Shown here in pieces: positions 482 through 14,625 of a DNA stretch of 25,525 nucleotides. Each line of letters begins with the position of its first letter. Position 1 is the stretch's first letter. This DNA is from a virus: the IMG/VR virus record IMGVR_UViG_3300017963_000708, positions 1 through 25,525 of that record. One strand, 5' to 3'. The position numbers were made by a program, and so were the translations under genes. The notes under the pieces are model-generated. The model ran no database searches. It was not told the DNA's origin and saw only the letters and a program-made list of their open reading frames with translations.

Positions 482-2950
482 GTGGGCAGGATCATCACAC
501 AGGCGATCCCGTTCCGGATCCCGTTCACTGACCTTCCAGGCCAGCGTCAACAGTCCAAGGGTTTCCGACTCCGGGTAAGGAATGCCAAGGGCGATCTGGC
601 GGAGGTGTACCACCTCCGGGACAGGCCCAGGCTGATGTACCTCCGCGGGGCGATCCCGGAGGGGTGTGCGGCCGAACTGGATCAAGCTGTGTACCTGGTG
701 GGCAAGCGGCGCGTGTACGTGACGATCGCCCAGTATTTCAACCTGTCGGGCGATGCTGTGGCCACGGTCCTGGAACGATTCGTGAAGGCCAAGGGCCCCA
801 GCATTAACACCCCGGAAGGTGTGGATGGTTTCGTGGATTCCCTGGCGGCGGACCTGTTGAAAGCCACGGAGGAAAAAAACGAGGCGGGCCTTCGTGCGGC
901 ACTGCGGACGATCGAGAAAAACAAAAACATGATCACCGCGGAGGAACACGCACGGCTGGCCAAGCTGATCGCCAACAACTGGGCCAACGCTGTGGCCGGG
1001 ATCGAAAACACCACCGGGTACGTGATCGCCCTCCAGGATGGTGGCATGGCCGCGGTGGCCGCCGCACGCCAGGCCACGATCGAGGAGTACGGCTGGGAAA
1101 AGGCGATCAGTTTCGCACCGAATCTGTCCGATGAATCCGCGATCATTGAAATGGCGGGCAACCGCGGATTTTTCGTCAAGGACGCATACGGCCTCCGGGA
1201 GGGACGCACCGCACGCAAGGCACAGTCCATCATGTCCGGGATGTTGAAACAGGGGCTGGGCCGGGAGGAAATGGCCGTGGCCCTCCAGGATCAGCTTGGC
1301 GATTACATGAAACGGGAGGATCTGAATTACTGGACCACGGTTGCGGATAACCACATCACGCGCACCAGGTCATGGGGCAACCTTTCGAGCATGGCGGACG
1401 CGGGGCTGTGGACGTTCACGGTGGAGGCCGTGCTGGATGAGGCCACCACGGATATTTGCCGGTTCATGCACGGCAAGGAGATCAGCATCCCGCAAACCCA
1501 GTCCCTGATGTTGAACGCGGACGCGGCCCCCAGGCACATGGACAAGGTAAACCCGTTCATGCGGTCCAAGGGTGGCCCGGGTGGAACCACGATCCTCCAG
1601 GTGCCCCACTGGAAAGGCAACAAGCAAACCTTCAAGACTGTGGCCACGGCCAAGGAGACGGGGTTCGGAATCCCCAACGCCACCGGCAAGTGGAACACCA
1701 AGATCGGCGGGGCCGATATGCCCGCGAATGGGATCGGCGCACCTCCATATCATCACAGGTGCCGGTCCACGCTGATCCCCACTGGCGGGCAGATCCCCAC
1801 CCAGGTGCCCCGGCCACGTGGTCCAAAAAAGCCACCCAAGCCGAAACCGAAAAACCCACGTGTGAAGCCACCGCCACCTCCGCCTCCACCTCCGCCACCG
1901 GAGGTGAAGCCAGCGGAGGCACCCAAGCCAGCGGAGCCCTACCATTCCGCGTTCAAGCATGAGGCCCCGAACACGCACGGCATGAGGTGGGACGAGGCGG
2001 AGGAAACGATGCTGGCCCACTGGGACGCCCGCCTCCCCGATGAAAAAGCGGACTGGGCCTCCTTCGTGGCGGACGCCAAGGGCCTGGAACCTGGCAACCG
2101 ATCCGATTTCAAAAAGTTGGCGCACAAGTTTGTGTCCGAAACAGGCAAGGGCACCACCAAGGGCGCGTGGGGAAAGCCAGGCACAACCCAGGGCCACAGG
2201 TTTGCGAAGGGCACCACCAACGTGAAGCGGGACGCCCGGCCGGAAATCGAGGGCAAGAAAACAACCACCAAGCCCATGCACCCGGTACGCCTGGCGGACG
2301 GCACAGTGAAGTATCCCAAGGAGGTCAGGGAAGCTGACAAGATCATGCGGGAGGTCAATTCTTGGGTGGACGCGGACACGATCGCGGAACGCGGGATCCA
2401 GCGTGCGGCCGGGGACAAGCTCCTGGCGGAATCCTGGCACCCGGAAAACCAGCGGTTGACGCTGTGGTGGTCCAAGCGTCAGGGCGTGGGAGGATTCTAC
2501 GCGGGAAGCCACGCGCCCAAGCTGTACGATCGGAGCCTGTCCAGGGGGATGCGAGTAAAGCGAAGGCAACACCTGGCCATGAAGGCGTGGTCTGATCGCC
2601 ATGGCGGGGAGGAGGCGTGGGAACGGTATCAGTACGATCTGGCCCATGAGTGTGGGCACGTCCTCCAGGAAATGAACCCGAACGCCAACCACCTTGGCCG
2701 GGCGATCATGAGCCGGAAGATCAAGGCCACGGGTGCCAGGAAAACGTGGAACCCCAACGGTGAATATTGGTACTATCCTGAAACCCGCAGCGTGATCAAT
2801 TACACGTCCGCCACATACGATGGGTGGCCGCCTGGCGTCGAGTACCCCAGCGAAGGCATGGCCCAGTTTTGGAAAAACCCCATGGAACTGTACGAGGCGG
2901 ACCCGGAGCATTTCTTCTATATCACCTCACTGTTGCGCGGGGGGATCTGA
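482..2950 (+). CDS. MuF-domain minor head protein fused to a C-terminal HEXXH metallopeptidase-like domain
   Basis: 822 aa from a GTG that directly abuts the portal stop, with GAGG-type purine-rich sequence upstream. Residues ~1-440 form the head-morphogenesis part. The MuF core is seen as VLDEATTDICRFMHGK around residue 316 and PPYHHRCRSTL near 420. Residues 463-473 are eleven consecutive prolines, inside a Pro/Lys-rich linker that separates the second half. The C-terminal half is unrelated to ordinary MuF proteins and contains H722-E723-C724-G725-H726, a zincin HEXXH motif. A SEGMAQFW segment with E791 follows about 65 residues later and is a possible third zinc ligand. MuF proteins are internal capsid proteins that can be ejected with DNA, and MuF-toxin fusions are known in prophages. 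A peptidase effector released into the host, or a virion maturation protease, is therefore plausible. Substrate unknown. Confidence 0.85.
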   Translation: MGRIITQAIPFRIPFTDLPGQRQQSKGFRLRVRNAKGDLAEVYHLRDRPRLMYLRGAIPEGCAAELDQAVYLVGKRRVYVTIAQYFNLSGDAVATVLERFVKAKGPSINTPEGVDGFVDSLAADLLKATEEKNEAGLRAALRTIEKNKNMITAEEHARLAKLIANNWANAVAGIENTTGYVIALQDGGMAAVAAARQATIEEYGWEKAISFAPNLSDESAIIEMAGNRGFFVKDAYGLREGRTARKAQSIMSGMLKQGLGREEMAVALQDQLGDYMKREDLNYWTTVADNHITRTRSWGNLSSMADAGLWTFTVEAVLDEATTDICRFMHGKEISIPQTQSLMLNADAAPRHMDKVNPFMRSKGGPGGTTILQVPHWKGNKQTFKTVATAKETGFGIPNATGKWNTKIGGADMPANGIGAPPYHHRCRSTLIPTGGQIPTQVPRPRGPKKPPKPKPKNPRVKPPPPPPPPPPPEVKPAEAPKPAEPYHSAFKHEAPNTHGMRWDEAEETMLAHWDARLPDEKADWASFVADAKGLEPGNRSDFKKLAHKFVSETGKGTTKGAWGKPGTTQGHRFAKGTTNVKRDARPEIEGKKTTTKPMHPVRLADGTVKYPKEVREADKIMREVNSWVDADTIAERGIQRAAGDKLLAESWHPENQRLTLWWSKRQGVGGFYAGSHAPKLYDRSLSRGMRVKRRQHLAMKAWSDRHGGEEAWERYQYDLAHECGHVLQEMNPNANHLGRAIMSRKIKATGARKTWNPNGEYWYYPETRSVINYTSATYDGWPPGVEYPSEGMAQFWKNPMELYEADPEHFFYITSLLRGGI
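1868..1900 (+). repeat. Polyproline tract (11 codons) in the MuF-peptidase linker
   Basis: Eleven successive proline codons (mixed CCA/CCG/CCT) encode residues 463-473 of the MuF fusion protein, flanked by Pro/Lys-rich sequence on both sides. This is a rigid, extended linker marking the boundary between the head-assembly half and the peptidase-like half. Such a tract would normally need EF-P to be translated efficiently, so expression of the C-terminal domain could depend on EF-P in the host (inference). Confidence 0.85.
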
Positions 2951-4364: not shown

Positions 4365-7300
4365 ATGCCCGCCGATCAAGTTCCCACCCACGGTGTTTTT
4401 CTACCCAGCAAGCTGATCAAACGACTGGCCGAAGGCCGGGGTTTGGTGTTGCTGAACCCTGACCCGTCCATGTACCAGCCGGACACCACGTACCTGGTGG
4501 TGGACGCCGCCTCCGTGGTGGGGACCGTGACGCCTGGGGAGTCCCGGGCGGCCCCCGCGGAGGAGGCGTTCAAGCTGGACCACGGGTACAAGGCCCAGGG
4601 CATGGCCAAGCGGTGGCCGGACGCGGAAGAGGTCACGGTATGGCCCGTCGAGTTCAGCCCGCTGGTGGAACGTGTCCCGCTGGCGGTCCAGGCGTCCATG
4701 GAATACGGGGAGGTGTTTAAGGTGAGCCTGGACGCCCCCGTGGTTCCCCTCACGGCGGAGGCCGTCGAGGCCATCCGGGAGGCCAAGCGTGGGGCCCGCT
4801 CATGGGTTCAAGGTGTGGGCGCGTTCATGGGCGAGGTGGGTGGTCACGTGGGCCCGGCCACGGGAGCCCTCCTGGCGGTCATGCCCCGGGCATCCCAGGG
4901 CCTCCAGGACGCCCTGAAATCGATCGCAGTCCAGGGGGGTACAAGGGCCCCGGTTTCAGATTTCACGGCCCTGGTGGACCACCTGGGGCCCACCGTGCGG
5001 AAACTGGCCCAGCACCTCCCACCGGGCCCCCTCCAGGATGACATGGAGGCCCGTGCGGATTACCTGGAGGCCCTGGCCCCGGCCGTGCGGTACGCCAAGG
5101 CCGCCCTCCCCGCATTGAAGCTCCCGGATCCCCTGTGGGTGGTCAAGCGGTTGACCGCGGACAAGGAGGCCGGATTCCTGTCCGGGAGGCCCCGGTCCGC
5201 ACGTCAGGGCCGGGATCAGTACCTGGTGAATGAAAAGGGGATGAAGGAGGGCACCCCGGAGGTGTACGCCCAGCCGTATGCCTGGGCGATCGTCCGGACG
5301 GGTGAGCCCCGCCAGGTGGACCACGCGGATCTGGCCAGCCTCCCGCTGGATAGCTTCACGCGGGCGGAATGGAAGGATCGGACGGGTGACACGCCCTGGT
5401 ACATCCCGATCCAGTTGGTGCGGGCCCTCGATCCTCCGGTGGAACTGCGGGAGGCACCTCCAGGGAGGCGGTTTGCTTCCGGCCTGGACCTGGAGGCCGC
5501 GGCCGTCACCAAGGCGGACCTCCCCGATCCAACGGACCTCCGCACCATGGATCAGCGTCCCCTCCTGGTGGTGCATGATGAACTGGTGGCGGACTGGGAG
5601 GAACGGTACCAGGGCAACAGCAAGGTGCCAGGACGTGAGGATCTGATCAACGCGATCCTGTTCACCAGGCAAGAGATCGAGCGGCGCGGGACGGACCTCC
5701 CGGAACTGCCGGGCGCACTGGACGCGGAACTGGGCGCACTGGAGGGCGCGAAACAGAAACAGGCGCGTGCCACGGCCGAGATCAAGGCCGGAAGCGGAAA
5801 CACCCTCCCGCCGATCACACTGGCCCAGGTGCTGGACGGTATGCGGAAACCGATCGTGTTGAGGCGCGGGGTGGTGACCGTCACTGGATCGGTGTGCAAC
5901 CAGGGGGCCACGCGCAATGATGTGGACGTGTTGATCCAGGGCCCCATGGATGACGGGCTCCGCAAGGTGGTTGAATTCCGCCTGGGCCGATCGTTCCCAG
6001 CCACGATTTCACAGCGGCTGAGTTTCCTCCACGATCCGGAACTGGGCGGACCGTTCACGGATCATGTGGAGGCTTTTGACCTGGTGTTGGTGCCACGCGA
6101 TCGGCATGACCTGATCGAAATGCGGGCGGTGGAAAAGGCGGGCGATCCCCTCCTGGATATGCCCCCGAAACGCGGTCCCCGCCAGGCCGTGTTCCAGTAT
6201 CACTGGCGTGGGAAAACCCTCCACGGGGATCTCCGGTTCAAGGTGGGATCTGATTTCCTGGTGGGATGGACCCTCCTCCTTCAAAAGCCGGGCGTTCCGG
6301 AGGCGGACACCGTGGCCAATGCGCGTGACCTGGCCCGCACGTTCAACGCGGACGGTGGCCGGTACAACAAGGACATGGTGGCCCCGGAGGGGATCCAGGC
6401 CACGCCCAAGAAACGGCAACCCGTCGAGTGGTTGCACGTGACCGGGGAACACATCGAACCTGGGGAGGTGGGTGCCACCACCAACCTCCCGGGGATCATC
6501 GTGGAGGTTCCGGGTGGTCCTGAATTTGTGGAACTGGGGGTGCAGAAGGCATGGTTCCATGAATATTTCCTGACGGGCGGGGACAAGCTGATCGGGAGGC
6601 TCATGTTCCGGCAGTTGCCCCAGTCAAGCCAGTCGGATCAGCCATTCTGGCGTGCCATCATGTCCAAGGAATTCCTCCCCTCCGTGCTGGATCGGCGGGC
6701 GGTCAACACCAAGTCCATGCCCCCGGATGGGTACTCATGGATCCCCGTGAGCCTGGAACGGGTCACGCCCAAGGAATTCAGGTACTGGGAACACAAGGGG
6801 GAGGAGGCCCGCAAGATCCGGGACGCCCTGGTGGACGCCCGTTTTTTCACCAAGGACAACGTGAAGATCGTCAACGGGCAGTTTGCCCGCGTGGACAGCA
6901 CCCGGAAATATCACCTGTATATCCCGGATGGCATGGAGGCCCGGGATGTGGTGAAGCAACCGGAACGCGCACCATGGGTGATGGTTCACCAGGTGTGGAA
7001 AGGCCAACAGGTCACGCGCACCGGACCGTCCAGGGAGGTGTGGAGGTTCGGGCTGGAACGCAAGGGCCATCCGGTCCAGTTTGAATTGCAGTCCGATCCG
7101 GATGAAACGGGCACCGTATCCGCGATCATGAAACCGTTGAAGGGCAACGCCCTGTGGGATCTGGAGGGTGAGATCGAACCCGGCAAGGCGTACGGCGGGG
7201 ACGTGTTTAACAACACCAAGGCCACACCGTCCGTGATCACCAGGCTGGACAAGGGCACCGCCACGATCCTGGAGGATGGCCCTGGGCGCGTTCAGTTGCG

Positions 7301-8207
7301 CCTCCGCGGGGACAAGCTGCGGGGCGTGTTCACGCTGGAACAGGAGGAGGAAGGATCCGATCAATGGATGTGGTCCCGCGTCGAGGGTTCCACGCCACAG
7401 GTGGACAAGGAGGATCCCGTCGAGGAACCCAAGGTGGAGGAACGCCAGATCGCGGCCAAGGCGATCGAGGGCGCGGAGGGATCCATGGACATGGCCGTGG
7501 GCCCTGTCCCTGATCCTGTCATGTGGTCCAACGTGGTGGAGGTCGGAGGGGAATCGTACGTGGCGATCGGAGCGGTCGGAGCGGACGCTGGCGTGAGTGC
7601 CGGGGACGTGATCGCGGTCAACGTGCTGGACGTGACGTACAAGCGGGACGCGGAGGGGAAGCAACACCTCCGCTGTGGAGGTTCGATCGTCAAGGCCGGG
7701 GCAGATCAGCTTGTCCCGTTCACACCGGCCCAGGTGCTGGACCTCCTCCGCCCCGCCGAATTCAACAAGTACGTTGACACGGTGATCGGCAACCTGTTAA
7801 AAATCGTAAAGGCTGATCAGGACGGCCAAGGCGCAAGCGATCGTTGTTTCGTGTTCGGGGAGGTGCTGGTGCCCAACATCGGGACAACGGAAGGCGAGGA
7901 CAGTCAAGGTGACACGTACACGGTGCAGGATGTGGAGGAGGCGTGTTACAGTTTCATGCGTCATGGACACCGCCACGGCCTCATGCACAGCCAGTTCATT
8001 GACGGCAAGATCACCCTCCTGGAAAATTACCTGATGCCCATGGACGTGACCTTGAAAGATCAAGGCGGACAGGATCGCACGATCCCCAAGGGTACCTGGA
8101 TGATGAAATGCGAGGTGTTGGACCCCGAGTTGAAGGCCGCGGTGCGGGCCGGTCAGTTGACCGGGTTTTCCGTGGGTGGATCGGGAATCCGGACACGTGT
8201 AGGATAA
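4365..8207 (+). CDS. Giant fusion: Pol-beta-like nucleotidyltransferase + LigD phosphoesterase-like segments + XkdF-type prohead protease
   Basis: 1280 aa. ATG 4365 follows AGGAGG by 8 nt; the TTG at 4323 is rejected. Residues 1-480 are unrecognised, with a helical Lys-rich part near 450-480. A nucleotidyltransferase signature follows: GS at 508-509, DVD at 519-521, and D572 in VEAFDLVLV, which is the Pol-beta-type metal triad. Residues ~610-630 read FQYHWRGKTLHGDLRF (H613, H620, D622, R624), resembling the LigD 3'-phosphoesterase motif QxHxxxxLHyDfRle. Residues ~974-993 (GRVQLRLRGDKLRGVFTL) resemble the C-terminal strands of that domain, preceded by a second, degenerate copy near 870. A 'GDVIAVNVLDVTYK' stretch near 1080 looks OB-fold/ligase-like. 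Residues ~1160-1280 match the XkdF putative serine protease, with H1208 in LMHS and S1269 in GFSVGG as a likely catalytic pair. The order (before scaffold and capsid genes) fits a maturation protease. The role of the DNA-repair-like half is unknown. Confidence 0.8.
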   Translation: MPADQVPTHGVFLPSKLIKRLAEGRGLVLLNPDPSMYQPDTTYLVVDAASVVGTVTPGESRAAPAEEAFKLDHGYKAQGMAKRWPDAEEVTVWPVEFSPLVERVPLAVQASMEYGEVFKVSLDAPVVPLTAEAVEAIREAKRGARSWVQGVGAFMGEVGGHVGPATGALLAVMPRASQGLQDALKSIAVQGGTRAPVSDFTALVDHLGPTVRKLAQHLPPGPLQDDMEARADYLEALAPAVRYAKAALPALKLPDPLWVVKRLTADKEAGFLSGRPRSARQGRDQYLVNEKGMKEGTPEVYAQPYAWAIVRTGEPRQVDHADLASLPLDSFTRAEWKDRTGDTPWYIPIQLVRALDPPVELREAPPGRRFASGLDLEAAAVTKADLPDPTDLRTMDQRPLLVVHDELVADWEERYQGNSKVPGREDLINAILFTRQEIERRGTDLPELPGALDAELGALEGAKQKQARATAEIKAGSGNTLPPITLAQVLDGMRKPIVLRRGVVTVTGSVCNQGATRNDVDVLIQGPMDDGLRKVVEFRLGRSFPATISQRLSFLHDPELGGPFTDHVEAFDLVLVPRDRHDLIEMRAVEKAGDPLLDMPPKRGPRQAVFQYHWRGKTLHGDLRFKVGSDFLVGWTLLLQKPGVPEADTVANARDLARTFNADGGRYNKDMVAPEGIQATPKKRQPVEWLHVTGEHIEPGEVGATTNLPGIIVEVPGGPEFVELGVQKAWFHEYFLTGGDKLIGRLMFRQLPQSSQSDQPFWRAIMSKEFLPSVLDRRAVNTKSMPPDGYSWIPVSLERVTPKEFRYWEHKGEEARKIRDALVDARFFTKDNVKIVNGQFARVDSTRKYHLYIPDGMEARDVVKQPERAPWVMVHQVWKGQQVTRTGPSREVWRFGLERKGHPVQFELQSDPDETGTVSAIMKPLKGNALWDLEGEIEPGKAYGGDVFNNTKATPSVITRLDKGTATILEDGPGRVQLRLRGDKLRGVFTLEQEEEGSDQWMWSRVEGSTPQVDKEDPVEEPKVEERQIAAKAIEGAEGSMDMAVGPVPDPVMWSNVVEVGGESYVAIGAVGADAGVSAGDVIAVNVLDVTYKRDAEGKQHLRCGGSIVKAGADQLVPFTPAQVLDLLRPAEFNKYVDTVIGNLLKIVKADQDGQGASDRCFVFGEVLVPNIGTTEGEDSQGDTYTVQDVEEACYSFMRHGHRHGLMHSQFIDGKITLLENYLMPMDVTLKDQGGQDRTIPKGTWMMKCEVLDPELKAAVRAGQLTGFSVGGSGIRTRVG
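7475..7487 (+). promoter_or_regulatory. Possible internal translation start for a stand-alone protease
   Basis: GGAGG (7475-7479) stands 5 nt before an in-frame ATG at 7485 inside the 1280-aa gene. Initiation there would give a 240-aa protein containing only the OB-like segment and the XkdF-type protease, without the nucleotidyltransferase and phosphoesterase-like parts. Internal starts in head protease/scaffold genes are well known (lambda C/Nu3). This is a prediction from ribosome-site quality only. Confidence 0.3.
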
Positions 8208-8211
8208 GGCC

Positions 8212-9837
8212 ATGAGCGCAACGGCGTTGAAGATCGAGAAGGGCAAGGACGGGACGTACCGCCTCACCTCCATGAGCATTCAGGAGGTGAGCCTTGTTGA
8301 TCGCGCCGCCAACAAGCGAAAATTCCTTTTCGCCAAGCGGGAGGACACCATGCCAGGTGCAGAGTTGAAGGAATCCCAGGACGGAACACTGGTGCTGGAA
8401 AAGGATCAGGGCACGGACACGGACACGGACCCGGGACAGGACGCTGGCCAGGATGGTGACGTGGCCAAGGGGATCGATCTTCCAGCGGCGCGGAAACAGG
8501 AACTGGCACCGCTGGCCCACAGGCTGGTGGAACAGGCCCTCCACATCCACAACCAGATCGTGGGTGCCAAGGAGGTCAAGGAGGGCGGTGCGATCCCGGA
8601 CAGCCTCACGGAAGAGGTCAAGGCCGCCAAGGGATCGCTGGGTGAACTGAGCGCGGCGATCATGGGCCAAGCGGAAGGGGACGCCACGGCAAGTGACACG
8701 GCGGGTGATGCACAGGTGGAGGGTGATGGTGCCGGGACTGCCTCCGCGGCACAGGCCAAGTCCACCATGTCCAAGTCCGAAGGCGCGGAGGAGGTAGATA
8801 TCCGCAAGGCGGCCGAGTTACACGCGAAGCTCCTCCAGGAACACGTGGACGCAATCTCAGCCTTGGCGGACGAAATCGCCAAGGCGGAAGGCATGGATCT
8901 GGAGGAACTGAACGCCAAGATCCGCGCCATGTCCGAACTGGGATGGAAACTGGAGGACGTTGCGGAAGTGGTCAACGTGAGCAAGGCGGCCGGGGACACG
9001 ATCGATGTGTCTAAGGTGGCCAAGCTACACGCCCAGCTACTGAAGGAAAAGATCGACGCGATCAAGGGCGTGGCGTCCGATATCGCGGGCAACGCGGCCT
9101 CCATGGACCTGGAGGATCTCCAGGGGAAGATCCGCACCCTCCGGAGCATGGGGTGGAGGGTGGAGGACGTTGCGCTGGTGGCCAACGTGTCCAAGGCTTC
9201 CGCAAGCAAGGCGGACAGCGGAAACGCGCCAACGGATGCACCCAGCACGGGACAGGACGCTGGGATCGTGGATGCCCTCACGGAGGAGGACATGGCGGCC
9301 ATGGCGGCCGGTGAACTGCCGGACACGCTGGCCAAGGTGGGGCGCAAGATGAGCGGCCGCAACCTGTCCATGTTCCAGGGTGCCCTGGACAAGATCGCCA
9401 AGGAACTGGAGCAACTGTTCAACCTGTACCGGGCCCTCCTGCCCGCGGCGGAACAGGGCAAGGCGGACGCCCTCCACAAGCGGCTGGTGGAGGACATGGG
9501 CCTCCCGGAAGTGCCCAAGGACAACGCGGGTGGATCGTTCACCTGGCCTGACAGTCCGGTGGGTGAGTACCCGGACGCGGCCCAGCCACCGGCCAAGGAG
9601 ACGCTGGCCACCCTCGAAAAGTCGATCGCGGACAAGGCGGAGGAGGTCAAGGCACTGCGGGAAAAGCTGGCCAAGGCCGAACAGGAGGCCGCCACGGTTC
9701 CGCCCCCGTCGAGTGCCCAGCCGGACGGCCACCAGGCCGGACCCGTGGCCAAGGGATCCCAGTCGGATGAAGGCTGGCCCCTGGACATGAACGCCTCCGA
9801 GTACCGCCAGAAGGTTGCCAGGGGGGAAACAACCTGA
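8212..9837 (+). CDS. Scaffold-like head assembly protein with protease-linked N-terminus and WPLDM tail
   Basis: 541 aa. ATG 8212 lies 4 nt after the protease stop. The first ~45 residues carry SIQEVSLVDRAANKRKFLF, an 'EVSLVD.aAN' motif that in many phages belongs to the end of XkdF-type protease polypeptides. An in-frame ATG at 8350, preceded by GGGAGG (8339-8344), could start a shorter protein. The remainder is highly charged and Ala/Glu/Lys-rich with long predicted helices and coiled-coil character, as expected for a scaffold. It includes two 69-residue repeats (residues 197-265 and 266-334). A second coiled segment near 460-490 precedes WPLDM at residues 522-526, 15 residues from the end. 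The place immediately upstream of the major capsid gene supports a scaffold role; the function is inferred, not proved. Confidence 0.7.
   Translation: MSATALKIEKGKDGTYRLTSMSIQEVSLVDRAANKRKFLFAKREDTMPGAELKESQDGTLVLEKDQGTDTDTDPGQDAGQDGDVAKGIDLPAARKQELAPLAHRLVEQALHIHNQIVGAKEVKEGGAIPDSLTEEVKAAKGSLGELSAAIMGQAEGDATASDTAGDAQVEGDGAGTASAAQAKSTMSKSEGAEEVDIRKAAELHAKLLQEHVDAISALADEIAKAEGMDLEELNAKIRAMSELGWKLEDVAEVVNVSKAAGDTIDVSKVAKLHAQLLKEKIDAIKGVASDIAGNAASMDLEDLQGKIRTLRSMGWRVEDVALVANVSKASASKADSGNAPTDAPSTGQDAGIVDALTEEDMAAMAAGELPDTLAKVGRKMSGRNLSMFQGALDKIAKELEQLFNLYRALLPAAEQGKADALHKRLVEDMGLPEVPKDNAGGSFTWPDSPVGEYPDAAQPPAKETLATLEKSIADKAEEVKALREKLAKAEQEAATVPPPSSAQPDGHQAGPVAKGSQSDEGWPLDMNASEYRQKVARGETT
8800..9213 (+). 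repeat. Two tandem 69-codon repeats in the scaffold-like gene
   Basis: Repeat 1 starts IRKAAELHAKLLQEHVDAI (residue 197) and repeat 2 starts VSKVAKLHAQLLKEKIDAI (residue 266). Both continue through MDLE(E/D)L, KIR, GW(K/R)(L/V)EDVA and (V/A)NVSKA, in register over their whole length. The period is exactly 207 nt. The DNA has diverged while the protein pattern is kept, which points to an old duplication under selection. Each unit looks like a helical hairpin, so duplication would lengthen a rod. Confidence 0.85.
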
Positions 9838-9878
9838 TACAAGGATCAAGAGCAACCACCACACGGCCGCCAGGGCCA

Positions 9879-9886
9879 CCAGTTAA
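9879..9886 (+). promoter_or_regulatory. Intergenic octamer CCAGTTAA, copy 2, in the 117-bp gap before the capsid gene
   Basis: The gap 9838-9954 is one of the two longest in the window and precedes the most highly expressed gene expected here, the major capsid protein. It contains CCAGTTAA at 9879, a possible long-range pairing of CAGGGC (9871-9876) with GCCCTG (9902-9907), and the ribosome site GGGAGG at 9941. I see no TTGAC/GATAGT promoter of the kind found elsewhere in the window. Confidence 0.4.
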
Positions 9887-9954
9887 CCGCAAGTAAAACC
9901 TGCCCTGGGTAGAACACGCAAGGAACGCGGAAGTACACCAGGGAGGTACCCCAC

Positions 9955-10884
9955 ATGACAAACGCGGAAGTGATCCGCAAGGCGGACATGGTACTGAATG
10001 ACCTCCTCACCGGAGGCGGTCTGCTGCAACCCGAACAGGCGCGGCGGTTCATGCGGCTGGCGATCGATCGATCGGTCATCCTGCCCATGACCTCCGTTGT
10101 CCCCATGAAGAGGCCCAGTCTCCTGATCGACAAGATCAGGTTCGGTTCCAGGATCCTCCGTGCGGGCACGGAATCCCAGGCCCTCCCCGTGGGGGAACGG
10201 TCCAAGCCGGATCTGTCCCAGGTCCAACTGGACACCCACCTGATGCGGGCGGAGGTTCGCCTGTCGTCGGAGGTGCTGGAGGACAACATCGAACAGGCCA
10301 ACTTCAAGGACACCCTGATCCAACTGATCGCGGAGCGGGTGGCCCTGGACCTGGAGGATCTGCTGATCAACGGGGACACCGGATCGGCCGATCCGTTCTA
10401 TGCCCAGTTCGATGGCCTTCTGAACGCCATCACCACGTATGTGTACAACCACGGCGGCCTGGCGTACTCCAAGGCGGTCACCAAGTCCATGTTGAAGCTG
10501 ATGCCCACCGAGTTCCTCCAGGACCGGGCGGCAATGCGCGTGTTCTATTCCCAGGACGCGGACACGGATTACCGTGACCTGATCGCGGAGCGGGCCACCA
10601 ACCTGGGGGATGACACCTTCAAGGGCAACCGCCCGATCGTCACGTACGGTGTCCCCCACGTTCCGGTGTCCAAGTTCCCGGAGACGCTGGCCCCCGGCAC
10701 ATACACCAACGCGGTGCTGATCGATCCGAAAAACCTTCAGGTGGGATTCTGGAGGCAGATCCAGATCGAGACGGCCAAGAACATCAGCGCGGGCGTGCTG
10801 ATCATCGTGGTGACCCTCCGCATGGGATTCGTCCTGGCGGAGGAAACCGCGGCGGTCAAGGCCATCGGGATCAACGTGGCCTGA
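9955..10884 (+). CDS. Major capsid protein (HK97 fold)
   Basis: 309 aa, the usual length for a small HK97-fold capsid subunit. ATG 9955 follows GGGAGG by 8 nt. Recognisable features in order: an N-terminal helix ending LLTGGGLLQPEQARRFM; a beta-rich segment with IRFGSRILRAGTESQALP; the long spine helix region ending in LDLEDLLINGDTGSADP, the 'aie.aiinGdg' signature of this family; a P-domain with the sequence RAAMRVFYSQDADTDYRDLIAERATNLGDD when read in two blocks (RAAMRVFYSQDADTDYRDL, IAERATNLGDD); and a C-terminal strand MGFVLAEETAAVKAIGINVA. It has no long N-terminal delta domain, so scaffolding probably comes from the separate protein at 8212. It forms the icosahedral shell. Confidence 0.9.
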   Translation: MTNAEVIRKADMVLNDLLTGGGLLQPEQARRFMRLAIDRSVILPMTSVVPMKRPSLLIDKIRFGSRILRAGTESQALPVGERSKPDLSQVQLDTHLMRAEVRLSSEVLEDNIEQANFKDTLIQLIAERVALDLEDLLINGDTGSADPFYAQFDGLLNAITTYVYNHGGLAYSKAVTKSMLKLMPTEFLQDRAAMRVFYSQDADTDYRDLIAERATNLGDDTFKGNRPIVTYGVPHVPVSKFPETLAPGTYTNAVLIDPKNLQVGFWRQIQIETAKNISAGVLIIVVTLRMGFVLAEETAAVKAIGINVA

Positions 10885-12145: not shown

Positions 12146-12177
12146 CCCATGATCCCGGTGTAGGCTGGGATCATGGG
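12146..12177 (+). promoter_or_regulatory. 11-bp perfect inverted repeat spanning the start codon of the sigma-region-4-like gene (candidate operator)
   Basis: CCCATGATCCC (12146-12156) and GGGATCATGGG (12167-12177) are exact inverted copies separated by 10 nt, and the right arm contains the ATG start (12173-12175). The loop holds TAGGCT (12161-12166), a possible -10. Upstream are TGGCAA (12138-12143, N17 from TAGGCT) and TTGACG (12132-12137). Transcription from this -10 would start close to the ATG, giving a leaderless or near-leaderless message, which agrees with the lack of a Shine-Dalgarno. A dimeric repressor on this dyad would cover both promoter and start. The encoded protein itself has a helix-turn-helix, so autoregulation is possible. 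Confidence 0.6.
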
Positions 12178-12718
12178 TGGCGGTCCATGGGGTACGGAGG
12201 AGGTGGCGGTGTTGGCCAGCCACCTGGGCACCGTTCCCGTGGATGACCTGGCGTACAGGCTGGGCCGTGAGCCCGCGGAAGTGCGGGCCCGGGCCCTGGC
12301 CCTCGTTTTGGATTCCAAGCCATCCACGTGTCCCCTGGGCCCCATCACGGCCGAAATTGCACAGGCCCTCCGCCCCCGAACATGGGGCGAATGCGAAAAC
12401 GGCCCACGGCCGTGCCCATGGGTTGGTTGCCGGTACCACCTGGTGTGGGAAGCGATCCGGCGGGCCATGAAGGTGCCACCCCGGAAGTTTCCCAAGCTGG
12501 AGGACCGTGATGTGATCCGGCACCTGTCCAAGATGGGGGACACGTGCGCCCTGGATCTGGTGATGAAACGGGGACCGTACACGTTGCATCAGATCGGGGT
12601 GATGTGGGGGATCACCCGTGAGCGGGTCCGCCAGGTGGAGGCCATGGCCAAGCGGTCATACGCTACCGCGGCCATTCGCATGGGCCAGCCATGGTTGATT
12701 GATCTGATCGGCCTGTGA
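12173..12718 (+). CDS. Sigma-70 region 4-like helix-turn-helix protein
   Basis: 181 aa. ATG 12173 is inside an inverted repeat and lacks a Shine-Dalgarno, so the start is reasonable but leaderless. Residues 1-50 resemble a small HTH/SANT-like segment (VPVDDLAYRLGREPAEVRARA). A central conserved-looking motif RPRTWGECENGPRPCPWVGC contains Cys residues arranged C-x6-C-x4-C. Residues ~136-161 (YTLHQIGVMWGITRERVRQV) are a clear sigma-70 region 4 helix-turn-helix, the part that reads the -35 element. There is no sigma region 2, so it cannot be a complete sigma factor. The 'RPrtrgdC..G.RPCPwv.C.yhL' plus region 4 layout resembles proteins I recall from deltaproteobacteria (Myxococcota and relatives). 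Likely a transcription regulator of phage or host genes. Confidence 0.75.
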   Translation: MGGGPWGTEEVAVLASHLGTVPVDDLAYRLGREPAEVRARALALVLDSKPSTCPLGPITAEIAQALRPRTWGECENGPRPCPWVGCRYHLVWEAIRRAMKVPPRKFPKLEDRDVIRHLSKMGDTCALDLVMKRGPYTLHQIGVMWGITRERVRQVEAMAKRSYATAAIRMGQPWLIDLIGL

Positions 12719-12748: not shown

Positions 12749-14107
12749 GTGGCACAATCCGGAAAGATCAAGGCGTACGTGATCGGGGCAGTGGCGCTGA
12801 GTGTTTCGATTGGGGGGGGGATCACCGCGTACCACATGCTGAAAAATGGTGATGCGGTTGGATTTGCGATCGACTGGCCACCGGAGAATGCCGGGTTGTC
12901 CTCCATGAATGACGCGGGGACTACGGTGTGTGTTCCGCCTGTGGTTCCGTGTCCAGAGGGCAGTGATTTGGACACGCGGGATTTCACGGGCCGGGCGGAT
13001 CCTGGTGCCGTGGTCACACTGTACCGGAACAATCGCGCCACATTGATCGGTACCACCACCGCTGGATCGGATGGGGAATGGACTGTGCCCGGTGCAATCA
13101 TACCGGAGGGGACCCACACGATCATTGCGGAGGCAAAGCTGGGCGCGAAGATCACCACCGTGAGTCATTCGATCTTTGTGGACACCACCTCACCAACCTG
13201 GGCTGATGCCTGGGACGTGCCGGACGGGATTGACGCGGTGGGGGGGATCTATTTGCACGGATGCGGGTGCCCGGACTGGTGCTGGCCCGCGGAGACGGCT
13301 TGGACCACGCTAGAATCCTGCACCCCGTCACCAGGGTATAGGTGTGGGCCCACGGGGGATTGTCACACGGATTATTCCGCCGCTGATTACCAGGAATGCA
13401 AGGCCAGCCGCCGTGCCGGGTGTTTGCGTGTTTCCACGCCACAGGTGGTGGACAACGGAGTGGTGCGGTTGTTGGAGATCCACACCAGCACGTACCATGA
13501 GGCCGGGTGCTGGCGGGTTCCTGGCACACCGGGATACTCGATCGAAAAAAATAGTAGCAACAGCACAACCACCCGATTCTACATCAACGGTTACACGTCC
13601 GCAGATCAATGGGTGGCCGGGGACACCGTGCTCCTCGAGGATTGTCAGGCCACCTGTGCGCTAACCGCGGACGAGGAGCGGGCCGTGTCAGCCCGAGCTC
13701 CGAACTATCTGGACGTGACACCGGCCGCTAGCGCGGATCTTGATGATTGTTGCATTCATAATCTATCGCGTGTGGCGATCATTGACGATCCTATCGGATA
13801 TCCTCCATGGGATCTTTTAGTTGGGATGTTGATCGAGGCGAAGGCTAGTGCGAGGAATGCAACCGTGGCGGGAATCACAGGGACCGGCCCATGGTCGGTG
13901 ACATTCACCGCGCCGTTTTTTGATCATGCGCCGGTTGGAATGTTGTACAACGCGGCCGTCCCCACGGACGCGCAAAGTGAGGCGTGGTGGGATCAAACTG
14001 GGATGCCGGATTGGGTGGACAACTATCAGTGCGTGATCCCGCCGAATGTTGTAGATGCGGAAACGGGTGGCCCAGCGGCATGTGTGCCCAAGAGTGAATG
14101 GAAATGA
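12749..14107 (+). CDS. Membrane-anchored, Ig-like, cysteine-rich protein of unknown function
   Basis: 452 aa. GTG 12749 lies 4 nt after GGAGGT (12739-12744); a GTG at 12743 in the same frame overlaps that site and is less likely. Residues ~7-30 (IKAYVIGAVALSVSIGGGIT) form one membrane segment after a short basic N-terminus, giving an N-in orientation with the bulk outside the cytoplasm. Residues ~77-147 look like a bacterial Ig-like domain (FTGRADPGAVVTLYRNN, then GEWTVPGAIIPEGTHTI and FVDTTSPT). The remainder is rich in cysteine (17 in the whole protein by my count, e.g. GCGCPDWCW and DDCC), Trp and Thr, with beta-strand character. It fits disulfide-stabilised export, unusual inside a virion gene block. 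It could be a moron altering the host surface or an odd virion fibre. Codon choice is less GC-biased than in the capsid genes. Confidence 0.65.
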   Translation: MAQSGKIKAYVIGAVALSVSIGGGITAYHMLKNGDAVGFAIDWPPENAGLSSMNDAGTTVCVPPVVPCPEGSDLDTRDFTGRADPGAVVTLYRNNRATLIGTTTAGSDGEWTVPGAIIPEGTHTIIAEAKLGAKITTVSHSIFVDTTSPTWADAWDVPDGIDAVGGIYLHGCGCPDWCWPAETAWTTLESCTPSPGYRCGPTGDCHTDYSAADYQECKASRRAGCLRVSTPQVVDNGVVRLLEIHTSTYHEAGCWRVPGTPGYSIEKNSSNSTTTRFYINGYTSADQWVAGDTVLLEDCQATCALTADEERAVSARAPNYLDVTPAASADLDDCCIHNLSRVAIIDDPIGYPPWDLLVGMLIEAKASARNATVAGITGTGPWSVTFTAPFFDHAPVGMLYNAAVPTDAQSEAWWDQTGMPDWVDNYQCVIPPNVVDAETGGPAACVPKSEWK

Positions 14108-14625
14108 GCACGGCGGCGCGGATAGGGGAAGCGTACCGGGATCAACGCATGTACCTGTTGCGCCGTGCGACAGCACTGGTGGGAGCGTGTGATGCGGAGG
14201 ACGTGGTGCAAGAGGCTGTACTGGTGGCGCTGCTGAAGTCCCAGGAGGATGGCATTCAGTACCCGCGTTCGTTCCTGGGTGGCGCTGTGGGGTGGAAGGG
14301 CATGGAGAACCGGCAGAAACGATCCCGCAGACTGCAACGGGAGATCCCCGCGCTGGAGGAACTGGCCGAATACGAGGAGGCGATCCTGGATCACCTGTCC
14401 CCTGAGCGGATATTTGAAGCGGCACGGAATGTGGACAGGATTGATGCGATGATCGCACGGATGCCAGCGGATCACAGGGAGGCGTTTTTGGATCTGTTGC
14501 AGGGGAAACCGTACACGGAGATTGCACGCACGGTGGGATGGTCGGTTGGTAAGGTGTGGAATCACATGGCGGACCTGAAGGCGCGGCTGGCCGGATCGAT
14601 CGATTGGCACGGAGCGGAACAATGA
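14104..14625 (+). CDS. ECF-type (sigma-70 family) sigma factor
   Basis: 173 aa from ATG 14104, which overlaps the preceding TGA as ATGA; an in-frame ATG at 14098 is the alternative. Region 2 is visible at residues ~10-50 (LLRRATALVGACDAEDVVQEAV), here cited as RRATALVGACDAEDVVQEA, with the DAEDVVQEA core typical of the -10 recognition helix. Region 4 is at ~115-160 (MPADHREAFLDLLQGKPYTE, then IARTVGWSVGKVWNHMADLK). The length and the two-domain layout without region 3 fit the extracytoplasmic-function class. No zinc-binding anti-sigma gene lies beside it; the next gene encodes an exported protein. A sigma factor inside a late structural block suggests a phage-specific transcription switch. 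Its target could be the TTGAC/GATAGT promoter family, but that is unproved. Confidence 0.8.
   Translation: MSTAARIGEAYRDQRMYLLRRATALVGACDAEDVVQEAVLVALLKSQEDGIQYPRSFLGGAVGWKGMENRQKRSRRLQREIPALEELAEYEEAILDHLSPERIFEAARNVDRIDAMIARMPADHREAFLDLLQGKPYTEIARTVGWSVGKVWNHMADLKARLAGSIDWHGAEQ

Follow-up and report, generated by a model that had tools for sequence, protein, structure and literature searches.

A single gene in the window, the whole 25,525-nucleotide stretch of viral DNA analyzed here, was found to join a putative minimal Pol-beta-type nucleotidyltransferase (NTase), two LigD-type phosphoesterase (PE) domains, the remnant of an ATP-dependent ligase and an XkdF prohead protease in one chain of 1280 amino acids. 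Judged from its sequence, the product is a polyvalent protein, since disparate enzymatic domains are united in a single chain that is encoded among virion genes. We see an even chance that it serves as a polyvalent head protein whose protease-borne end-healing cassette enters the prohead and acts on the viral DNA ends after ejection.

Domains of the fusion protein

The gene (4365..8207, + strand, as are all features below; coordinates are positions in the window and residue numbers those of the 1280-aa protein) is one open reading frame. It starts with ATG at 4365, AGGAGG lies ~10 nt upstream, and the GC content by codon position over the whole gene (0.69/0.44/0.80) shows a coding-type bias. 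The single protein of the original prediction is therefore real, and the residues named there (G508, S509, D519, D521, D572, H613, H620, D622, H1208 and S1269) were found at their places. When the single protein sequence was searched directly against Pfam, PHROG and PDB, XkdF alone was detected. This prohead serine protease domain (Peptidase_S78_2, aa 1159-1274, 7839..8186) matches PF14550 with E 4.8e-16 and 59.3 bits against a cut-off of 24. Its catalytic H1208 and S1269 are both conserved and the top viral fold matches include XkdF proteins, which bears out the predicted protease end. The N-terminal region (aa 1-480, 4365..5804) ends in a helical stretch at about aa 400-440 that is common to relatives. 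It was modeled poorly by AlphaFold (AF2; mean pLDDT 59), no PDB fold match was obtained from that model, and aa 1-245 share only 25-28% identity with the relatives L107 and L008.

The AF2 model employed for the other domains covered residues 478-1280, with full-length alignment rows for the fold. The LigD-type 3′-phosphoesterase domain PE1 (aa 603-825, 6171..6839) was modeled with pLDDT ~92. Foldseek of the 478-1280 model gave seven PDB matches with E<1e-3, all of them LigD PE structures, and a profile of PE1 and the second PE-like domain, PE′, found only 3p4h and 3p43, both LigD-type PEs, in the whole PDB sequence set. The Pfam family PF13298 was detected in 13 of 52 family members (best E 1.5e-7); in the window it matches 7047-7337 (aa 895-991, within PE′) with E 0.0015, at 13.4 bits below the gathering cut-off of 31.1. 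The LigD phosphoesterase segment of the original prediction is thus confirmed as a fold.

PE1 keeps Q611, H613, H620, D622 and R624, the last four corresponding to the LigD metal triad His42/His48/Asp50 and to Arg52; R624 is present in 80 of 81 relatives. The metal triad and the DxD motif of the NTase are kept across about 60-80 diverse sequences, many of the PE1 loci having been retrieved with a pattern that contains the triad; of the ~13 found otherwise, only L020 and L021 lack it. The catalytic Asp and His residues, whose loss had been named beforehand as the refuting outcome, are retained in close homologues. At the phosphate site, however, two residues that P. aeruginosa LigD cannot do without (PMC8656161), His84 and Tyr88, align with Q685 and W689. 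The replacement is family-wide: at the first position 66 of 87 sequences have Q or E, and at the second all 87 have W. PE1 is therefore a divergent subfamily for which LigD-like chemistry is not assured, and the agreement with the LigD active site extends to the metal triad but not to the phosphate site.

PE′ (aa 866-1008, 6960..7388), which accounts for the PE-like strands predicted near residue 980, was recognized by the 3p4h/3p43 profile match and by PF13298. Its metal-binding residues are gone in the window, and the triad is kept in 13 and lost in 50 of 63 relatives. We take it to be a catalytically degenerate second PE.

The NTase (aa 484-600, 5814..6164) is a domain of only ~115 aa, with neither polymerase thumb nor fingers. 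Its motif residues are conserved among the relatives (G508 in 62/62, D519 in 62/64, D521 in 63/64, D572 in 47/63), whereas residue 509, originally read as part of the motif, varies between S, P and N even among the closest relatives. Profile matches remain subthreshold: PF01909 is hit with E 0.03 and PF14792 with E 0.016, and all 46 PDB matches are Pol X-family polymerases (DNA polymerases beta, X and TdT, none of them protein-modifying NTases) but with E 0.3-1.1. Among the 50 Foldseek matches listed for the AF2 model there was no NTase. The conserved motifs suggest, at a subthreshold level of profile similarity, that the domain belongs to the Pol-beta superfamily.

Between PE′ and the protease lies an OB domain (7455..7724). 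Its similarity to the segment located after the ligase core of the sister lineage L008 (34.5% over 139 aa, E 5e-24) substantiates the OB-like stretch predicted near residue 1080. As L008 keeps a ligase core ahead of this OB domain, that of the window is the remnant of an ATP-dependent ligase without its adenylation core.

Relatives and loss of the ligase core

About 78 distinct relatives were found, viral and proviral, bacterial and archaeal, among them a Myxococcales provirus (L037), in which NTase, ligase, OB, PE, PE′ and adenine methylase modules are shuffled. A ligase core is present in 62 of 83 related loci, with the catalytic lysine in 60 of 64. It is a full PF01068 core, located between or beside the NTase, PE and OB modules, scores above the Pfam cut-off in many of the relatives scanned, and is nearly always the sole PF01068 match in the viral record. 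Motif I of the XkdF-fused ligases is mostly KxNG rather than KxDG. Many relatives also carry adenine methylases (DNA N6-adenine enzymes) in the same polypeptide. It is the ATP-dependent ligase core amid these domains that identifies the set as a LigD-like end-processing kit, in agreement with the DNA-end-processing modules of the original prediction. A standard Ku-LigD system of non-homologous end joining (NHEJ) was considered and rejected, since Ku (PF02735) was not found in 25 records, which are mostly fragments. A Pyr_excise match in L015 (E 6e-5, 27 residues) was judged spurious, as it sits in the shared helical segment.

An ATP-dependent ligase core with motif I is absent from the window and from the 52-kb L004 record, and no ligase was found elsewhere in the records of the window, L004 and L011, which are fragments. 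Several lineages have no ligase core. As the core was lost in the window lineage, the window protein cannot itself seal DNA. Within the ligase-less clade, NTase (62-83%) and PE1 (67-81%) are conserved on par with the protease (65-84%), and PE′ and OB drift.

The link to the capsid protease extends over the family. The cassette shares its chain with an XkdF protease in one large clade and in several scattered clades, 33 of 83 loci altogether, and in most of the unfused loci checked a separate head protease gene lies directly downstream of it. For instance, the next gene gives a head-maturation-protease match in L018, L066, L094 and L104, and a weak one in L014. Genes for TerL, portal or capsid proteins surround the cassette in the loci checked.

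Proposed role and alternatives

That the cassette is fused to the capsid protease or lies just upstream of it suggests that this virus loads repair enzymes of its own into the particle and delivers them. The C-terminal XkdF protease would carry the LigD-like end-healing cassette into the prohead, where it would mature the capsid and cut the cassette free. The freed cassette would remain in the virion until ejection and enter the next cell together with the genome. There PE1 would process 3′ ends by Mn-dependent removal of 3′-phosphates or terminal ribonucleotides, and nucleotide addition or fill-in would be the task of the Pol X-type NTase. Where a ligase is built in, as in most relatives, it would then seal, leaving the incoming genome repaired, circularised or protected; in the window lineage, with its ligase core lost, sealing would be left to the host. 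Polyvalent proteins and the Dar proteins of phage P1, described below, serve as precedents.

Alternatively, the cassette might act during assembly, healing nicks and 3′ ends at or in the prohead before release, whereupon the protease would remove it. The position of the gene between portal and capsid genes and the fusion to a protease whose activity is confined to the prohead are consistent with such a role, but we consider it unlikely, because the adenine methylases in the same polypeptides fit the protection of DNA in a new cell better and late DNA repair needs no fusion to a prohead protease. RNA, such as host tRNAs cut by defence nucleases, is an equally unlikely substrate in our estimation. 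The PE would then heal the 3′ ends, the NTase add and the ligase seal, and this would agree with 3′-ribonucleotides being substrates of PE enzymes, with the KxNG form of motif I and with subthreshold RNA_ligase (PF09414) matches of the L018 and L035 ligases (0.021 and 4e-5). Nevertheless, every scored ligase core matches the PF01068 DNA ligase family far better, the same-chain methylases are DNA enzymes, and the sole PDB matches of the NTase, though weak, are DNA polymerases.

Two further alternatives concern the activity of the domains. Loss of the PE′ metal residues in 50 of 63 relatives, the replaced His84 and Tyr88 in PE1 and the disappearance of the ligase core from several lineages speak for the view that NTase and PE are catalytically inert and contribute to the head protein only structurally or by binding DNA. 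The residue conservation disfavors this, as the PE1 triad and the DxD motif persist in diverse sequences (many retrieved by the triad-containing pattern) and, where the ligase has been lost, the conservation of NTase and PE1 still matches that of the protease; we judge it improbable. Least probable of all, in our opinion, is the transfer of NMP to host proteins by the NTase, unrelated to DNA ends. Such transfer was proposed for the minimal Pol-beta NTases of other polyvalent proteins in PMC5512222 and would suit a domain with neither thumb nor fingers, but the NTase is consistently joined to PE and ligase, and its weak matches are to DNA polymerases rather than to protein-modifying NTases.

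Extending the preferred role of packaged end-healing beyond the window is more tentative. A large group of uncultured tailed viruses, bacterial as well as archaeal, may carry in the virion a Ku-independent LigD-like end-healing machine, composed of Pol X-type NTase, tandem PE, ligase and often adenine methylases, as cargo of the maturation protease, so that the ejected genome would arrive with enzymes repairing, circularising and marking its ends; we lean somewhat against a claim of this breadth. If it is true, ejected linear genomes would not depend solely on host ligase and recombination in the first minutes of infection. Prohead proteases are accompanied by ligase, PE, NTase and methylase modules in ~80 viral sequences, and this recurrence makes the question testable and offers a route to annotating many large unnamed head-cluster genes. 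Should prohead proteases be cargo carriers, they might also provide a tool to load enzymes into capsids.

Related systems and neighbouring head genes

Like the window protein, the polyvalent proteins known from phages and conjugative elements combine several enzyme domains of unrelated kinds in a single polypeptide whose gene lies amid head genes. According to Iyer et al. (2017, PMC5512222), their assemblin-like peptidase is always C-terminal, and the domains they contain include Pol-beta NTases and DNA methylases; term searches of that paper found no mention of LigD, nor any module corresponding to a LigD-type PE or an ATP-dependent DNA ligase. Bacterial LigD (POL-PE-LIG; PF13298/PF01068) shares the PE fold and metal triad, and most relatives likewise pair PE with an ATP-dependent ligase core and OB, a polymerase-type NTase replacing POL. 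In contrast to LigD, the viral proteins have tandem PEs, a Pol-beta-type NTase where LigD has its primase-like POL, replaced His84/Tyr88, no Ku and a capsid protease fused or adjacent, and in the window the ligase core is missing.

A homologue occurs in the archaeal virus ANMV-1 (AJP62006.1, KP703175), annotated as 'ATP-dependent DNA ligase'. Its PE and PE′ align with those of the window protein (28% over 468 aa), as does the NTase, but it has a ligase core, another module order and no XkdF fusion. The main text of the 2015 ANMV-1 genome paper mentions no ligase, and a scan of viral contigs for close relatives of this protein gave no match. The Dar proteins of phage P1 (DarA, DarB, Hdf) are similarly large, tied to head morphogenesis and co-ejected with DNA; DarB (~2000 aa) travels in the virion and is co-ejected, and the prohead protease cleaves DarA. 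They differ in being anti-restriction proteins from separate genes, with no end-repair domains described in the consulted part of the source (PMC12810830). Stand-alone XkdF prohead proteases (PF14550; e.g., of Pseudomonas phage Kassivere) share the protease family and the slot between portal and capsid, but have ~155-180 aa and no cargo domains. Some XkdF matches in cultured phages are labeled 'DNA methyltransferase'; the one in Kassivere has 154 aa, occupies the position of a stand-alone XkdF protease and is too short for a methylase fusion.

The neighbouring genes belong to the same head cluster. An HK97-fold major capsid protein (9955..10884; phrog_1623 1e-90, PF05065 2e-9) is preceded by a scaffold-like ORF (8212..9837), which opens with a EVSLVDRAANKRKF motif and at aa 16-45 matches the N-terminal part of phrog_3017, a head maturation protease, with E 1.2e-4. 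The same arrangement of protease, scaffold-like ORF and capsid gene is present in L004. Upstream, 482..2950 encodes a MuF-like minor head protein (phrog_13868 1e-30; PF04233 subthreshold, 1.7e-4) with a C-terminal HECGH zincin-like motif, read by eye, and is probably a second polyvalent head protein.

The fusion gene and its relatives

The fusion gene (4365–8207, + strand) opens with an ATG at 4365, preceded ~10 nt upstream by AGGAGG, and its 1280 codons carry a strong coding-type GC pattern throughout, which establishes the predicted 1280-aa protein as the product of a single real gene. It sits within the head-to-tail cluster of a tailed phage, the record being a 25.5-kb IMG/VR fragment. A MuF-like minor head protein (482–2950), which has a zincin-like HECGH motif in its C-terminal part as well as a long Pro/Lys linker, is probably a second polyvalent head protein in the cluster. 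A scaffold-like ORF (8212–9837) lies 3′ of the fusion gene, followed by an HK97-fold capsid protein (9955–10884) and genes for a head-tail adaptor, a tail sheath, a tail tube and the baseplate, which mark the virus as one with a contractile tail. The EVSLVDRAANKRKF motif, N-terminal in phrog_3017 head maturation proteases, opens the next ORF (within 8207–8330) and not the fusion gene; the related locus L004 has the same layout. An HTH-like ORF (phrog_323, 12173–12718) and a sigma-factor-like ORF (phrog_1740, 1e-9; 14098–14625) also lie amid the structural genes.

Single-sequence searches recognised only the C-terminal XkdF protease that had been predicted (PF14550, E 4.8e-16), and relatives were therefore gathered before domain assignment. 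A tblastn search led to a protein of the archaeal virus ANMV-1, annotated 'ATP-dependent DNA ligase', which shares with the window protein, in alignment, the nucleotidyltransferase (NTase), the first LigD-type 3′-phosphoesterase (PE1) and the second, degenerate one (PE′). Alignment-based scans yielded 17 viral loci and five from bacterial or archaeal assemblies, and a broader scan 75 viral loci overlapping the 17. With profiles built from these relatives and identical proteins merged, PE1 is present in 83 loci; the PE1 tree comprises 78 different sequences.

Nucleotidyltransferase, phosphoesterase and ligase

With moderate confidence, residues 484–600 are taken to be a minimal Pol-beta-type NTase. 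G508, D519, D521 and D572, which played no part in selecting relatives, recur in 62/62, 62/64, 63/64 and 47/63 of them, respectively. These residues are where the original prediction placed them; the second residue of its GS motif is not constant (S, P or N inside the closest clade). All 46 PDB profile matches are X-family DNA polymerases (Pol beta, TdT, Pol X), but at E 0.3–1.1, and PF01909 (0.03) and PF14792 (0.016) match a few members.

The LigD-like phosphoesterase segments were borne out by structure prediction: in an AlphaFold2 model of residues 478–1280 (mean pLDDT 79; PE1 and PE′ ~92), exactly seven PDB fold matches fell below E 1e-3, all LigD PE structures. Searched against the whole PDB sequence set, the PE–PE′ profile found two matches, 3p4h and 3p43, both LigD-type PE. 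PF13298 matches PE1 in 13 of 52 family sequences (best 1.5e-7) and the window PE′ at E 0.0015. H613, H620, D622 and R624, equivalent to the LigD metal ligands and Arg52, are kept throughout the relatives, the triad being partly selected among loci from the largest scans, whose patterns contain the metal motif itself. Loci found through the PKEFRYW pattern or whole-protein similarity keep it too, except L020 and L021, where the part bearing it is absent. PE1 has Q685 (Q or E in 66/87) and W689 (W in 87/87) where LigD of P. aeruginosa has the essential residues His84 and Tyr88 (PMC8656161), so PE1 is a distinct PE subfamily whose chemistry may differ from that of LigD. PE′ has the full triad in 13 of 63 cases and lacks it in the window. 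In L035, a stand-alone PE′ protein (9840–10604) has the HFDLR triad intact and a C-terminal helix-turn-helix match.

Many relatives match the ligase core PF01068 above cut-off. Residues 1034–1165 align with the stretch following that core in L008 (34.5%, E 5e-24); the OB-like stretch noticed near 1080 is thus what is left of a ligase. In the PE1 phylogeny, a ligase-less group (support 98/95) unites L004 and L107 with the window and its two identical-domain copies; L008, beside it (100/100), retains the ligase. PF01068 has no match in the rest of the window record or in that of L004. After ligase loss, NTase and PE1 are as conserved as the protease. Motif I is KxNG in most XkdF-fused ligases, for example those of L008, L009, L012, L013 and L037, and KxDG in most others; 15 of 16 KxNG-type ligases are XkdF-fused. 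Segments resembling decayed methylase C-termini lie between PE1 and OB or PE′ in L010 and L012, where L037 has an intact methylase.

Linkage to the capsid protease and proposed role

XkdF and PE1 share a polypeptide in 33 of 83 loci, comprising one large clade and several scattered cases. Among unfused loci, the following gene matches a head maturation protease in L018, L066, L094 and L104 and weakly in L014; L049 and L056 gave no match. L035 has a weak match two genes downstream, its order being terminase, portal, cassette (the NTase, PE and ligase/OB modules), separate PE′, protease and capsid protein.

The cassette's polymerase-type NTase, 3′-phosphoesterase and ligase mirror the polymerase, PE and ligase labour split of LigD (PMC8656161), but Ku was absent from 25 records. 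Fusion to a protease working inside the prohead suggests that the protease carries the cassette into the particle. Polyvalent head proteins are a known general kind, thought to be injected along with DNA, and their assemblin-like peptidases are always C-terminal (PMC5512222); in phage P1, the ~2000-aa DarB is packed into the particle and DarA is cut by the prohead protease (PMC12810830). From these precedents, the fusion and the LigD-like set, we propose that the cassette would be packaged, cleaved and co-ejected with the viral DNA, whose ends it may heal; a ligase carried in the chain would do the sealing, and in the lineage of the window the host would. These steps are inferred, whereas the domain identities, their conservation, the linkage to the protease and the loss of the ligase were observed directly. 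In a search of open-access literature, PMC5512222 was the sole match for a prohead protease coupled with DNA ligase, phosphoesterase and similar terms, and it does not mention LigD; priority is not certain.

Chains reach 2052 aa, as in L037, whose chain includes three adenine methylases. By eye, the 1970-aa chain of L038 has an ADP-ribosyltransferase-like insert, without Pfam match, between the second methylase and the NTase. C-terminal domains in L015 (~7181–7663) and L021 (~9694–10158), with a GVWNG...GEL/GTY..SFS/GFS pattern, look like another prohead protease type and have no PHROG match. The slot for stand-alone XkdF in Pseudomonas phage Kassivere (L043, 2378–2842), and in similar loci, is occupied by a 154-aa protein annotated as 'DNA methyltransferase', a name probably inherited from the phrog_1530 description.
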